Of a DNA stretch of 12,784 nucleotides, positions 1 through 11,195 are shown in pieces. The stretch lies in NCBI GenBank assembly GCA_018058445.1, contig JAGOZY010000005.1, forward strand, positions 1 to 12,784, read 5' to 3'. This stretch comes from Negativicutes bacterium (GTDB lineage Bacteria; Bacillota; Negativicutes; JAGOZY01). The translations under genes and the position numbers were made by a program. Each line of letters opens with the position of its first letter. Position 1 is the stretch's first letter. The notes under the pieces were generated by a model that had not been told where the DNA came from, did no database searches, and was given only the letters and a program-made list of their open reading frames with translations.

Positions 1-1343
1 GAATCGGTGTAGAGCTCGTCGCAATTCATGGTCAACACGACACTCAGGAGATTTTTTCATCCGACTTTGCTTTGAAAATATTAGATCAAAGCCACCCAGA
101 AATCCTTACTTTAAAAGAAAAATACCAAGAAAAATACCGAGCCCTCAAAGCCCTTGAAGCGGAAGAAGAGCGAATCCGGCAAAGAGAAAGTGACCGAAGC
201 AATCGCCTCGAAATGCTTACCTGGCAGATCCAAGAACTTTCAGAAGCCCAATTAAACGAAGAAGAAGAAAATAAGCTCGAAGCCTATGTGCTGAAAGCTT
301 CAAATACAGAGCGAATTGCTGGTGGTCTTGGGGAAGCCTACGAACGATTAAATGGCGACACAGGTTCCATTCTTAGCGGCCTTTTCCAATCCAAGCGCGC
401 CCTTGAGCAAGCCGCCCGATTTGATAGCTCAATCAGTGCTACCGTCAAAGAACTGGAAAATGTCTACTTTCTGACCGAAGAAATTATTCAACAAGTTCGT
501 GAAAGTCAAAGCACAATTGACTTTGATCCCTATGAGCTTGAACGCTCACAAAAACGGTTAGACGTGTTATATCGTCTCAAAAAGAAGTATAATTTAGACA
601 TCCCAGACTTAAAAAGTCATCTTCAATCGCAAATTGAAGAAAAACAGCAGCTTGAAATAGAGCAAATTCGTAAAAATTCACTCACAGCAGAGATCTTAGC
701 GGCCAAAGCCGAAGTTTTCACAAGCGGAAATCTACTTAGCGAGAAGCGCAGCAGCATTGCCCGTGAGTGGGGAAAAACGATACAAGATGCAATTTCATCC
801 CTTGCGATGCCAGATGCAAAATTTGAAATTTCTCAAGAGCAGCGAGACGAATGGACGATTGAAGGACAAGATCGAATAGAGTTCTTGTTCTCAGCCAATA
901 TCGGCCAGCCTTTGCAACCACTGCGCAAAGTCGCCTCTGGCGGCGAACTTTCACGAGTAGCCCTTGCCTTAAAAAGTATTGCTGCCCAAGACAATCAGTC
1001 ACAAACACTGATTTTTGACGAAGTAGACACAGGGATTGGTGGAAAAACCGCTCTTGCAGTAGGGGAAAAGATGCGAAAACTTGCAGAGCAAAACCAGCTC
1101 CTAACCATTACCCATCTTCCGCAAATTGCCTCCTTTGCCACTCGGCATTTTCACATCGCCAAAAATGTACTCAATCAGCAAACCCTCACAGAAGTATCCC
1201 TACTAGACCCCAAGGAACAAATTGACGAAATCGCCCGTATGCTTGCAGGCGACCGAGATCATGAGACCGCTCGAAAAATGGCGCAAGAAATGCTATTACA
1301 AAATGGCAACTCAGGCGAACGAAAGGGTGAGGCAGGATGGTAA
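1..1343 (+). CDS. recN: DNA repair protein RecN (5' end outside window)
   Basis: This is the C-terminal roughly 447 residues of RecN, an SMC-like ABC ATPase that acts early in recombinational repair of double-strand breaks. The frame is open from position 3, and the first residues carry the RecN hallmark HGQHD (nt 27-41), so the gene starts upstream of the window; full RecN proteins are about 550-570 residues. A long charged coiled coil (about nt 110-720) is followed by the ABC signature ASGGELSR (about nt 933-956), the Walker B segment LIFDEVDTG (about nt 1008-1034) and the switch histidine in ITHLPQIA (about nt 1108-1131), all intact. A TTG at 72 lies inside this frame and is not the real start. 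The TAA stop at 1341-1343 overlaps the ATG of spo0A, so the two are probably co-transcribed. In B. subtilis spoIVB lies between these genes; here it does not. Confidence 0.96.
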   Translation, partial: IGVELVAIHGQHDTQEIFSSDFALKILDQSHPEILTLKEKYQEKYRALKALEAEEERIRQRESDRSNRLEMLTWQIQELSEAQLNEEEENKLEAYVLKASNTERIAGGLGEAYERLNGDTGSILSGLFQSKRALEQAARFDSSISATVKELENVYFLTEEIIQQVRESQSTIDFDPYELERSQKRLDVLYRLKKKYNLDIPDLKSHLQSQIEEKQQLEIEQIRKNSLTAEILAAKAEVFTSGNLLSEKRSSIAREWGKTIQDAISSLAMPDAKFEISQEQRDEWTIEGQDRIEFLFSANIGQPLQPLRKVASGGELSRVALALKSIAAQDNQSQTLIFDEVDTGIGGKTALAVGEKMRKLAEQNQLLTITHLPQIASFATRHFHIAKNVLNQQTLTEVSLLDPKEQIDEIARMLAGDRDHETARKMAQEMLLQNGNSGERKGEAGW

Positions 1344-2103
1344 ACAACGTAGAGGCGATCTCTATTGCGATTGTCGAAGATAATCTGGAATTTGCAGAGT
1401 TACTTGCCGAATATATTGCCAAGCAGTCCGGTCTCTCCGTCATAGGAGTCGCAAATCATGGAGAAGAATCCATGAACTCCATCCGCAAGTCATCATTTTA
1501 GATATCGTCATGCCCCATTTAGATGGACTTGAAGTTCTAAAATCAATCATGACAATCTCCCCGGACGAACGGCCCAAAGTCATTGTACTGACCTCTTATG
1601 CCCAAGAAAAAATGACTCAGCGAGTGCTCGCCCTCGGAGCGGATTACTATATGCTAAAGCCCGTGAATTTAGAAGTCCTTATGACGCGAATTCGGGAGCT
1701 GTTCATCGAGGAATTCCAAACTGGAGCCATGGATCATCTCGTCACCCGAGGGGCCTCGGATATTGAAAACCAAGTGACCCGGATCATTCAAGAGTTTGGT
1801 ATTCCGGCTCATGTCAAAGGATACCAATATCTACGGGATGCAATTATCATGATTGTAAAAGATCCGGATCTTTTGGGTGGAGTTACCAAGATTCTCTACC
1901 CGGATATTGCTAAAAAATACAACACAACTGCCAGTCGGGTGGAGCGCTCGATCCGGCACTCGATTGAGATTGCCTGGTCTCGAAAACCAACGGATCGGGT
2001 AAACGAGCTTTTCAAAACATCACTCGATAGCTTAAATGGCGATCGACCCAGCAACTCCGAGTTCATCGCCATGGTCGCAGATAAATTACGAATTTTACAA
2101 TGA
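1337..2103 (+). pseudogene. spo0A: Sporulation master regulator Spo0A, receiver domain frameshifted
   Basis: Spo0A is the phosphorelay response regulator that switches on sporulation. The first part begins at ATG 1337 (behind an AGGGTGAGG-like site) and reads as a receiver domain: IAIVEDN with the acidic pocket E14-D15, then [11 protein letters not shown]. It hits a TAG at 1499-1501 after 54 codons. The rest of the protein continues in another frame from about 1480: [16 protein letters not shown], with the phosphoacceptor Asp codon at 1501-1503, then KP near 1660, then the complete DNA-binding domain, including [20 protein letters not shown] and [11 protein letters not shown], ending at TGA 2101. 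Compared with B. subtilis Spo0A from memory, about 13 nucleotides are missing between GEE (nt 1460-1468) and HPQ (nt 1480-1488). This is a multi-base deletion, not a one-base slip. A short direct repeat TCCAT (1469-1473, 1478-1482) lies at the lesion. It could be a true pseudogene or an assembly error; family identity is certain. Confidence 0.9.
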
Positions 2104-2160: not shown

Positions 2161-2709
2161 ATGGAAAAAATCGATCCAAGTTTAGCTGAAAAGACGCTTT
2201 CGAAAAAAATGGGCTTTGATGGAGAGCTTCTCAAGCTCGAAGTCGAAGTTGTAGAGTTACCAAATGGGAAGACCGCAACAAGAGAAATCATTCGTCATCC
2301 TGGAGCCGTTGCGATCGTTTGTTTAAACGAAGAAAACAAAATCGTTTTGGTCCGTCAATTTAGGAAGCCACTGGATAAAACTCTCCTCGAAATTCCAGCT
2401 GGTAAATTAGAGTACGGCGAAGATCACTTAGAATGCGCGAAACGAGAGCTACTGGAAGAAACCGGATACATCGCCAAGTCATGGAAAAAATTAGGCCAAA
2501 CCGTGACAGCCCCAGGCTTCACCGACGAGACGATCCATCTTTTTTTAGCAACTGACGTGACATCAGGCACTGCTCAACCAGATGAAGATGAATTTTTACA
2601 AGTAGAAAATTATACGATTGACGAAATAAAAGAAATGATTTTTGCTGGAGTGATTGATGATGCAAAGTCGATCGTAGCCTTTTTTCTCTCGGGGATATTT
2701 ATAAAATGA
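2161..2709 (+). CDS. nudF: ADP-ribose pyrophosphatase, Nudix family
   Basis: The product is predicted to hydrolyse ADP-ribose to AMP and ribose 5-phosphate in the cytoplasm, clearing a reactive NAD breakdown product. The protein has 182 residues, normal for this family. The Nudix box is complete at residues 81-103, with pattern G-x5-E-x7-REUxEExGU seen as GKLEYGE followed by RELLEETGY; its glutamates bind the catalytic metal. The preceding VRQFRKP...LLEIPAGKLE segment and the following TVTAPGFTDETIHLFLA segment are typical of the ADP-ribose pyrophosphatase subgroup. The start ATG follows AGGAGG (2151-2156), with a rather short 4-nt spacer. The stop overlaps the next gene's start in an ATGA (2706-2709), implying translational coupling. 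A nudF gene near spo0A and xerD matches the B. subtilis neighbourhood. Substrate assignment is by family, not shown by sequence alone. Confidence 0.92.
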   Translation: MEKIDPSLAEKTLSKKMGFDGELLKLEVEVVELPNGKTATREIIRHPGAVAIVCLNEENKIVLVRQFRKPLDKTLLEIPAGKLEYGEDHLECAKRELLEETGYIAKSWKKLGQTVTAPGFTDETIHLFLATDVTSGTAQPDEDEFLQVENYTIDEIKEMIFAGVIDDAKSIVAFFLSGIFIK

Positions 2710-3932
2710 GATCCCTGCGCAGTGATTTTCACGTTCATATTGGAAAAGCGAAAAACAACTGGGTTAAAATGGCTTCGTCGGCCAACCTTACACTCGAAAA
2801 TATTGCAACCTATGCAGCCTTCCCGAAAGGAATGGATTGGGTTGGCATTGTCGATTGCGGATCAAAATGGGTACAAGAAGAATGGCAGCAAGGCATCCAC
2901 GAAGGACGCATTACGCCACTGCCCTTAGGAGGATACCAGCATCAGTCCGGCACGTTTTTACTACCTGGAATAGAGCTTGAGACCCGAGAGGAAAATGGCG
3001 GATTGGTACATGTTGTTTTCTATTTTCCTGATATCGAAAAAATTCAAGAAGCAATGAAAAGGCTAGACGGAAAGATCACAAATCCCAACCTAAGCACCCA
3101 AAATGTAAAAATTTCACTTCAAGAATTGATCCTTCTATTTGAAGACCTACCAAATATCCTCGTTCCTGCTCACATCTTTACCCCTTATAAAAGCTTGCTT
3201 GGGCGTTCCTGTCGCCGAATCAGTGAATTGATCGCCTCGGAATCGTTAGACAAAATCTCCGCGATCGAACTTGGCTTAAGTGGAGATCGCTTCTTAGCGG
3301 ATCGAATTGCCGAGCTTAGCAACTATCCTTTTTTAACGAATTCAGATTCCCATTCATTGGAAAACATTGGACGAGAGCACAATCTCCTACAAGTTGAAGA
3401 AGGAAGCTTTCAGGAACTTCAATATGCTCTTGCGGGCGAAAAAGGACGAAAAATCTTAGCCAATTGGGGATTCCACCCATCCCTTGGCAAGTATCATCTC
3501 AGTGCCTGCCGAGCCTGCGGAGCGGTTTTATCCAAAGAAGAAATCTCATTAAATAAATGTGCAGCTTGCGGAAAATCCCGCCTATCCATCGGTGTTTATG
3601 ATCGAATAGAGCAGCTTGCTGACTATAGTACGCCTCAGTCACCGCCCCATCGTCCACCTTATCATTATCAAATTCCCTTAAAATTTTTCCCCGGTATTGG
3701 CCCAAAGAAAAAAGATCAGCTTTACCGGGAAATTGGCACCGAGAGTCAGATCCTCTTCGAAGTGTCCGAAGAACAACTTATCCCGATCTTAGGAATTAAA
3801 ATTGCCAAAGACATCATTGCCAGTCGATCCGGAAATATCAAATTCAACCCGGGCGCAGGGGGACGATATGGAAAAGTAGTAGGAGGCGATCGACGTGAGA
3901 GCGATAAACAAAGAGCTCCAGGAATTCGTTGA
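2706..3932 (+). CDS. Endonuclease Q family PHP-domain DNA repair nuclease (YqxK-like)
   Basis: A 408-residue protein of the EndoQ/TIGR00375 family. Characterised members nick DNA 5' of deaminated bases (uracil, hypoxanthine, xanthine) and abasic sites. An N-terminal PHP metallophosphoesterase domain supplies metal ligands: D7, H9 and H11 (SDFHVH), D50, E90 (PGIELE), H102, H156 (VPAH) and D214/H216 (SDSH). A four-cysteine zinc finger follows, with CxxC pairs at C268/C271 and C285/C288. A helix-hairpin-helix region comes last (FFPGIGPKKK, residues 327-336), which would grip the DNA backbone; the conserved tail is around GAGGRYGKV (383-391). The last 17 residues past this tail lie mostly over the start of xerD and may be an unselected extension. 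The start is ATG 2706, in a 4-nt overlap with nudF. All recognisable catalytic residues are present, so it should be active. The exact lesion specificity is inferred from the family. Confidence 0.88.
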   Translation: MRSLRSDFHVHIGKAKNNWVKMASSANLTLENIATYAAFPKGMDWVGIVDCGSKWVQEEWQQGIHEGRITPLPLGGYQHQSGTFLLPGIELETREENGGLVHVVFYFPDIEKIQEAMKRLDGKITNPNLSTQNVKISLQELILLFEDLPNILVPAHIFTPYKSLLGRSCRRISELIASESLDKISAIELGLSGDRFLADRIAELSNYPFLTNSDSHSLENIGREHNLLQVEEGSFQELQYALAGEKGRKILANWGFHPSLGKYHLSACRACGAVLSKEEISLNKCAACGKSRLSIGVYDRIEQLADYSTPQSPPHRPPYHYQIPLKFFPGIGPKKKDQLYREIGTESQILFEVSEEQLIPILGIKIAKDIIASRSGNIKFNPGAGGRYGKVVGGDRRESDKQRAPGIR

Positions 3933-4794
3933 TTATCTGGCTCTTGAACTCGGACTTGCTAAAAATAGCCTACTTGCCTATGAACGGGATTTAACTAAAG
4001 TAATAGAGTTTTTAAATATCAGCCTAGAAGAGATCAAGCCCGATGACGTTCGCGCTTATCTACAGGCCCGAAAAAAAGAAGGATGGACTGCGGCATCGAC
4101 AAAGCGCACCCTGTCAGCCTTGCGAACTTGGGGAAAATATCTGGTCGAAAGAGGAATCTGGAAGAGCAACTCCATGCTACTACTCGAAGCGCCAAAAGGG
4201 GAGAGACGATTGCCGAAAACGCTCGAATTAGAAGAAGTCGAAGCGATCTTAAAGCAGCCTCAAGTGACGCTACCAGCAGGGGCTAGAGATTTAGCGATGA
4301 TTGAGCTTCTATTTTCAGCAGGACTTCGAGTATCGGAACTACTTGATCTAGATATTCAAGATGTCCAACTCGAAATGGGATATGTACGTTGTTTCGGAAA
4401 AGGCTCCAAAGAACGAATCGTTCCGATTGGTGAAAAATCGATTCGCTCCATTCAGTTTTATATCGAAAGAGGCCGCGGCGAATTTGTTTCAGCTACCTCT
4501 GACCGAGCCCTTTTTCTCAACCAAAAAGGAAACCGCATGACCCGGCAAGGGTTCTGGAAAATTTTAAAAGCCTATGCGACTAAAGCAGGGATAAAACGTC
4601 CGATCTCGCCCCATCATCTTCGGCATTCATTTGCGACTTTGCTACTCGAAAATGGAGCCGATCTGCGTAGCGTTCAGGAGATGCTTGGACACGCAGATAT
4701 CTCTACGACCCAGATTTATACCCATGTTAGCCAAAAACATTTATACAACATTTATCGCAATGCGCATCCGCGCGCGAAAAGTTTTGAAAAATAA
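3895..4794 (+). CDS. xerD: Tyrosine recombinase XerD
   Basis: A site-specific tyrosine recombinase of 299 residues (family norm about 298). XerD works with XerC at the dif site near the terminus to resolve chromosome dimers before division. The N-terminal SAM-like core-binding domain spans about residues 1-95, and the catalytic domain about 105-295. The full active-site set is visible: R145 in GLRVSELL, K169 in FGKGSKE, H240 and R243 in HHLRHSFA, H266 in LGHADIS and the nucleophile Y275 in QIYTHV. The start is GTG 3895, 8 nt after AGGAGG (3881-3886), giving a 38-nt overlap with the preceding gene. Assignment as XerD rather than XerC rests on the neighbourhood (nudF and spo0A upstream, as in B. 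subtilis) and the ending typical of XerD. No spoIIM or fur gene separates nudF from xerD, unlike B. subtilis. Confidence 0.93.
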   Translation: MRAINKELQEFVDYLALELGLAKNSLLAYERDLTKVIEFLNISLEEIKPDDVRAYLQARKKEGWTAASTKRTLSALRTWGKYLVERGIWKSNSMLLLEAPKGERRLPKTLELEEVEAILKQPQVTLPAGARDLAMIELLFSAGLRVSELLDLDIQDVQLEMGYVRCFGKGSKERIVPIGEKSIRSIQFYIERGRGEFVSATSDRALFLNQKGNRMTRQGFWKILKAYATKAGIKRPISPHHLRHSFATLLLENGADLRSVQEMLGHADISTTQIYTHVSQKHLYNIYRNAHPRAKSFEK

Positions 4795-9941: not shown

Positions 9942-10643
9942 ATGAAAAAAATACTAACCGCATTTGTCTTAGGGATAATGCTTATTACTACTGGAGGACT
10001 TGCATCTGCTGAGTCTGCTCAGACCGGAATACGAGTCATCGGTGAAGCCAATATCGAAAAGACCCCTGACCAAACAACCATTCAATTTGTCGTTGAAACA
10101 ACTGGAAAAACACCAGAACTTGCCCAAGCAGAGAATTCAAAAATTTCATCGCAAGTCTACCAAGAACTGATGGGACAGGGAATAGGTCGCGAACAATTTA
10201 AAACGACTCAACTCTCATTAGATGTCCAAAGGGAATATAATAAAGACGGTACGAATAAAGTAATCGGTTATCGAATGACTCATCGAGTTTCCTTAAAACT
10301 GGATGGAACCGATAAAGCCGGGCCCATGGTTACTAGTCTAATCGCAAGTGGTGTGAATCGAATTGATTCTGTTCAATTTGGTCTAAAAGATGAAAGCTCA
10401 GCACAACGAGAAGCTCTCGCAGCAGCCGTCAAAGATGCGCAAAGCAAAGCTGCGGTCTTGGCAGAAGCTTCCGGCCGCCGAATTATCGGTGTAAGAGCCA
10501 TTGAAGAGCAAGGCGTTAACTTACGTAGACCCGTTGCCCTTAATTATGAAATGAAAAGCGCTGCAGATGGTGTCGGCCAACAACAAGCTTGGGCTGGCGA
10601 TATTACAGTCACTGCAACGATCATCGTGACTTACGACTTCTAA
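9942..10643 (+). CDS. Exported SIMPL (DUF541) domain protein
   Basis: A 233-residue secreted protein of the SIMPL/DUF541 family (BP26/OMP28 relatives). The function is poorly defined: in various bacteria members are linked to stress or oxidative resistance or to immunogenic surface proteins. The N-terminus is a signal peptide: KK, then a hydrophobic core (about 4-20), then ASA with likely cleavage after A23; there is no lipobox cysteine. The mature part starts with the usual IRVIGEANIEKTPDQTTIQF and continues with VIGYRMTHRVSLKL and a C-terminal GDITVTATIIVTYDF strand, so the domain is complete. The start ATG 9942 follows AGGAGGT (9927-9933) with an 8-nt spacer. It sits alone between two terminators. 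I see no convincing promoter in 9858-9926, although the strong terminator upstream implies one. Confidence 0.9.
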   Translation: MKKILTAFVLGIMLITTGGLASAESAQTGIRVIGEANIEKTPDQTTIQFVVETTGKTPELAQAENSKISSQVYQELMGQGIGREQFKTTQLSLDVQREYNKDGTNKVIGYRMTHRVSLKLDGTDKAGPMVTSLIASGVNRIDSVQFGLKDESSAQREALAAAVKDAQSKAAVLAEASGRRIIGVRAIEEQGVNLRRPVALNYEMKSAADGVGQQQAWAGDITVTATIIVTYDF

Positions 10644-10694
10644 TAAAACCGCCTCACCGTTTTTGATCAGAACCTCAAAAGATGGACAATATAA

Positions 10695-10736
10695 AAAGCT
10701 CCCTATTGCAGAATAAAATCTACGATAAGGAGCTTT
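10695..10736. terminator. Probable bidirectional terminator between convergent genes
   Basis: AAAGCTCCCTAT (10695-10706) pairs with ATAAGGAGCTTT (10725-10736): 12 pairs with one mismatch and an 18-nt loop. The + strand exit is CTTATG, with a short pyrimidine run inside the arm. The minus strand exit reads GCTTTTTATAT, a good T-tract. Its position between the SIMPL gene (+) and the SH3 gene (-) fits termination of both, more convincingly for the minus strand. Confidence 0.6.
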
Positions 10737-10788
10737 CTTATGTCTGCAAAAAGCAGTCCATAGTTTTGAGAGGTTTAGTAGGAAATGC

Positions 10789-11144
10789 TCATATTTTTTC
10801 TTTAGATTATCTTTAGCAACCCATCCAGTTTCATTATCAGCTTTTCTGACACACCAATACCACCCATTAAGTTCATAAATTGCACCAACAATATCACCAG
10901 TAGTTACAGCCATTTCTTTTGAAGTATAGTCTTTAGTTGCAGTCCCAGTTCCCTTGTCTATGATCAATATGTGAACAGGAACCTAACCTTTTTGATCGGA
11001 CTGATTTGATGTACAGAATATCCAATTTGGATAGGGTCCATCTGGGTCTGATAATTCTCCTAGCTGTACAGTATCACCCTTTAAAAGCTCAACAGGATTC
11101 AGGTTATCATTTGTATAATCGCTGAGTACCTCAAATAACGCCAT
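10789..11144 (-). pseudogene. Double SH3-like domain protein, broken by amber stop and 3' frameshift
   Basis: Read on the minus strand from ATG 11144 (AGGAG about 8 nt upstream), the product is a small cytoplasmic protein of about 118 residues made of two SH3-like repeats. Repeat 1 runs MALFEVLSDYTNDN...LLKGDTVQLGE...PNWIFC and ends QKG-stop-VPVHIL. Repeat 2 runs DYTSKEMAVTTGDIVGAIYELNGWYWC and ends ETGWVAKDNL. The stop is a TAG at 10983-10985, exactly where the second repeat has W in GWV; both halves are in the same frame, so a single TGG-to-TAG change accounts for it. Near the 3' end a run of six A (minus strand, 10793-10798) reads through the expected end. One more A would give KKKI followed by TGA at 10789-10791. 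No lipoprotein or export signal is present. Function is unknown; SH3-like repeats usually bind peptides or cell-wall material. Confidence 0.7.
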
Positions 11145-11195
11145 CGTTCGATCTCCTGTTATCTTCAAAAGTTCCACATGTACTTATTTGAATAT

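Follow-up and report, generated by a model that had tools for sequence, protein, structure and literature searches.

A probably recent 13-nt loss breaks spo0A in a seemingly asporogenous member of the Negativicutes

The window is a stretch of 12,784 nucleotides, contig C151 of the draft genome G000 (1,323,869 bases in 242 contigs, 74.36% complete). It begins with recN, which is cut by the contig start, followed by spo0A in two frames, a gene for a NUDIX hydrolase, a TIGR00375-like gene, xerD and others. The end of recN and the start of spo0A overlap by 7 nt. The features of this region are as follows.

3..1343, plus strand, recN, 3' part (NCBIfam TIGR00634, 1.1e-102, under the curated cut-off because of the truncation)
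1337..1501, plus strand, 5' fragment of spo0A (from comparison with the proteins P0001 and P0002, tail common to P0121)
1466..1472, plus strand, approximate site of a 13-nt loss (from the distance between the conserved codons at 1460 and 1498)
1510..2103, plus strand, 3' fragment of spo0A in the other frame, with the remaining receiver and the complete Spo0A_C domain (PF08769, 1.1e-39; PF00072, 3.9e-11; TIGR02875, 3.7e-75)
2161..2709, plus strand, NUDIX hydrolase, intact (PF00293, 2.3e-22), used for synteny
2706..3932, plus strand, TIGR00375-like protein, open frame (TIGR00375, 5.1e-67, under the curated cut-off)
3895..4794, plus strand, xerD, intact (TIGR02225, 8.9e-106)

The spo0A frame that opens at ATG 1337 encodes 54 residues and ends at TAG 1499-1501. 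The first 44 residues of the product are those of Spo0A and the rest is an out-of-frame tail; searched alone, the fragment at 1337..1501 gave no Pfam match. A different frame, open after a stop at 1381 and running to TGA 2101-2103, encodes what remains of the receiver and the entire DNA-binding domain. The DNA-binding domain is recognised in this 3' fragment by both PF08769 and TIGR02875 (252.6 bits, cut-off 200). In the window the receiver and the DNA-binding domain are thus not in one frame, the break falling at 1499-1501; in P0001 they are, with a single TIGR02875 match of 325.7 bits over residues 7-257.

The size of the loss was measured between two conserved codons. From the Gly codon at 1460 to the Leu codon of the LDIVMP site at 1498 there are 38 nt in the window and 51 nt in the intact P0001 and P0002, which gives a net loss of 13 nt. 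The loss adjoins codon 1466-1468, a placement that is approximate because the comparison with the intact copies is at the protein level. When a fixed pattern was applied to 107 loci (L001-L107; L001 is the locus of the window, and L027 matches weakly and is doubtful as a Spo0A), 85 had 17 codons (51 nt), two had 18, and one each had 19 and 20, with 18 loci unmatched by the pattern. Among 123 retrieved proteins the spacing is 17 codons in 98 and 18 codons (54 nt) in one, and 24 were unmatched. The only direct repeats found within 1441-1500 are of 5 nt. The first-pass annotation had described a frame from ATG 1337 ending at TAG 1499-1501 with its continuation in another frame, a net deletion of about 13 nt in the receiver, and conserved flanks including the DNA-binding domain, and our measurements bear out all three.

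Two further possibilities were tried and rejected. A scan of the frame overlap at 1381-1515 for slippery heptamers of the form XXXYYYZ (Y = A or T) gave none, so a programmed frameshift is not suggested. A second intact spo0A, for which a genome search had been proposed, was not seen; the Spo0A_C search of the 74.36%-complete G000 gave one match only.

Related sequences were retrieved with each of the two fragments. The 54-residue fragment found two clusters. The first, P0121, is a protein of 54 amino acids (longest contig 1116 nt) with an out-of-frame tail identical to that of the window and one substitution, at residue 4, which is N in the window and Q in P0121. The second, P0122, has 42 residues that are identical to the start of the fragment and ends just before the site (three contigs, the longest 2302 nt); this end may be a contig edge and hence carry no certain information. 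The 197-residue downstream fragment found P0001 and P0002, both of 259 amino acids, 99% and 89% identical respectively, in which the receiver is uninterrupted. P0001, which is also of the Q type at residue 4, represents a cluster of 21 sequences; complete and incomplete members may be lumped in such a cluster, whose size therefore yields no allele frequency. The window, P0001 and P0121 may all derive from one sample.

These sequences bear on whether the deletion was made in assembly, for example from a mixture of strains, from a gene that is truly intact. G000 is a fragmented draft of 242 contigs, an intact copy with 99% identity exists, and P0122 may stop just before the site because a contig ended where the sequence varies, all of which an artefact would explain. 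Against this, exactly the same broken tail occurs in P0121, a distinct sequence that differs at residue 4, which makes a sequencing error improbable. The usual errors of short reads do not include losses of 13 nt. We consider an artefact unlikely, and the break is probably real, as had been proposed on the ground that a loss of this size is not a typical base-call error. The earlier suggestion that the break is recent also holds at the protein level, where the window differs from the intact P0001 at one of 197 downstream residues. A comparison with close relatives had been suggested as a check for a fixed gap. The uninterrupted frame in the near-identical P0001, and also in P0002, indicates that the loss is not fixed, and spo0A looks polymorphic, with intact and broken alleles in existence.

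The broken allele would be null if the 54-residue peptide, which has no DNA-binding domain, were its only product. It is conceivable that translation reinitiates at ATG 1510, 8 nt past the stop codon, and gives a phosphorylation-blind Spo0A that has no phosphorylation site and keeps the DNA-binding domain. The 197-amino-acid frame is open, it scores 252.6 bits against TIGR02875, and it has the single difference from the intact copy mentioned above, although so low a divergence is equally expected from a recent break. No clear Shine-Dalgarno sequence was seen by eye before 1510, and half a receiver domain probably would not fold. Reinitiation to an active protein therefore appears very improbable to us.

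In the intact P0001 there are an acidic pair, ED (DD in relatives), the LDIVMP site and an LKP motif, to which we assign the roles presumed from general knowledge of response regulators. Given these three elements, P0001 probably functioned as a response regulator until recently.

We searched for sporulation markers in G000 and 39 relatives, 40 genomes in all. Besides G000, 25 of the 39 relatives gave a match for Spo0A_C. SpoIVA (PF09547) was found in 20 relatives, sigma-E over the cut-off in 21, and SpoVAC/AE (PF03862), SASP (PF00269) and SpoIIIAE (PF09546) in 22 each. The last three occur in the same 22 relatives. Each of these has Spo0A and lacks no more than one of the five markers; the gaps among them are SpoIVA in G029 and G036 and sigma-E over the cut-off in G002. 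G000, at 74% completeness, gave no match for PF09547, PF03862, PF00269 or PF09546 and no sigma-E over the cut-off (best 66 bits against 348.6). The only genome of the same family that was found, G001 (77% complete), has none of the five markers and no Spo0A_C match. At these levels of completeness single absences in G000 and G001 could be gaps.

SpoIVB (PF05580) was matched in all 40 genomes, but G000 and G001 have nothing beyond a single partial match scoring about 57 bits. Every other genome has such a partial match too, in 21 of them beside a full one, and it is probably another protein. Apart from this partial match for spoIVB and scores under the cut-off for sigE, the core genes of endospore-formers (spoIVA, spoVAC/AE, spoIIIAE, SASP, spoIVB and sigE) were not found in the 74%-complete G000.

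Three relatives of the same class as the window, G008, G013 and G016 (95, 99 and 98% complete), have Spo0A and none of the five markers was found in them. The other 13 marker-free relatives are without Spo0A as well.

Gene order was compared around recN. In the window spo0A directly follows recN. In G001 (locus L143, contig C41, 2591-5820) recN, the NUDIX gene and xerD are adjacent, with neither spo0A nor the TIGR00375-like gene; 71 nt separate the end of recN (4279) from the start of the NUDIX gene (4351), which leaves no room for spo0A. All 21 genomes searched for the NUDIX gene, with that of the window among them, gave a match. For the TIGR00375-like gene, tblastn at 1e-4 found nothing in the seven compared stretches, that of G001 included.

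In G006, of the same class as the window, recN runs to 2697, spoIVB occupies 2916-4259 and spo0A starts at 4337 (L148). In the marker-free G008 (L144) and G016 (L146) recN stands directly before spo0A, as in the window, and the stretch around spo0A in G013 (L145) gave no recN match. The distance from spoIVB to spo0A is at most about 1.3 kb in 14 of the 22 marker-bearing genomes. Among the others, G012 and G033 carry spoIVB at a great distance on the same contig, G019 has it some 1.9 kb away, G003, G007, G023 and G036 have it on another contig, and G025 has no full match. Since spoIVB is not always beside spo0A, its absence from the window is supporting evidence that is weak alone.

It had been expected that a cell with this allele could not start sporulation. 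As an account of why the organism would not sporulate this does not stand, as the tested markers are missing in both G000 and G001, and sporulation seems to have been lost before spo0A broke. The lineage probably lost sporulation earlier and Spo0A outlived it, as far as the gene content of these drafts can tell. The further expectation, that other Spo0A-dependent programmes would be lost with the broken allele, is plausible.

Both parts of this picture have precedents. Spo0A-positive Firmicutes that do not form spores include Macrococcus caseolyticus, Exiguobacterium and Bacillus selenitireducens (Galperin et al. 2012, PMC3533761). As in these organisms (PMC3533761), Spo0A is kept here and core genes such as sigE, spoIVA, spoIVB and those for SASP are missing; unlike them, the present case probably lies in the Negativicutes and the retained spo0A is itself broken while near-identical sequences are intact. 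An organism of that kind has an intact Spo0A and no core genes; in the window the allele is broken, and its intact near relatives are known as proteins only.

In Clostridioides difficile ribotype 078, non-sporulating variants with premature stops in spo0A arise after prolonged incubation (PMC6757067). There too loss-of-function alleles of spo0A stand beside intact siblings. This parallel would favour the idea that a spore-former ceased to sporulate when the allele of the window arose. The C. difficile alleles are point nonsense mutations in a spore-former (PMC6757067), whereas here there is a 13-nt deletion and the tested sporulation markers were not found. With those markers missing in G001 as well as in G000, we give this idea almost no credence. 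The case in the window combines both known kinds, a Spo0A without sporulation genes and loss-of-function alleles of spo0A. A broken spo0A in asporogenous Negativicutes was not found among the titles and the opening parts of abstracts in the literature searched.

We therefore think it likely that the spo0A allele of the window is genuine, of recent origin, confined to some strains and null in effect, and that its bearer, one of the Negativicutes, probably forms no spores, the regulator decaying after an earlier loss of sporulation. Endospore formation would have been lost first in the lineage, and Spo0A would have been kept afterwards, presumably for a role outside sporulation. The 13-nt deletion in the receiver would then have shifted the frame in some strains, leaving the short peptide, while near-identical sequences kept the gene intact. 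A sister genus lacks spo0A at the corresponding place. The deletion itself looks like ordinary gene decay and calls for no new mechanism.

A somewhat different history is suggested by residue 4. The same 13-nt deletion occurs on two backgrounds, N and Q, and the intact P0001 is of the Q type, which could point to an on/off polymorphism kept by recombination, recurrent deletion or selection and not to simple decay. We regard such a polymorphism as rather unlikely. In the reading as decay of the regulator, the loss of the sporulation machinery seems to be seen here near its end: the genes that build the spore go first, the master regulator outlives them and then breaks within a species. The function of Spo0A without sporulation thereby becomes a testable question in a group of the Negativicutes.

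A second gene in the window is also broken. An in-frame TAG at 10985-10983 interrupts a small minus-strand gene, named SH3-like by eye (10983-11177 and 10521-10967), neither part of which has an NCBIfam match. The retrieved protein P0123 has 53 residues, differs at one of them and terminates at the same residue, and the break may therefore also be present in this second sequence. A genome in decay would be consistent with this, though two genes are too few to gauge it.

More distant relatives of Spo0A were found in scans of contigs. Among genome contigs the best protein identity was 55% (in the best 80 of 569). The scan of viral contigs gave one nearly full-length match and 17 shorter pieces. 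The former (L152, 1320-2114 of viral contig IMGVR_UViG_3300048919_000251) is a Spo0A relative over almost its whole length with 44% identity. Sporulation genes in gut phages have been described (PMC10294663).

A tree of Spo0A was built from 29 loci (25 relatives and four outgroups), of which 21 proteins were used, together with P0001 and P0002, giving 23 rows. The loci L002, L006, L018, L022, L023, L026, L032 and L052, which were unmatched by the pattern, were left out. The marker-free rows need four changes on this tree; 148 of 500 shuffles needed no more, and the tree did not settle how many times sporulation was lost. P0001 and P0002 sit on a very long branch, as if they were fast-evolving.
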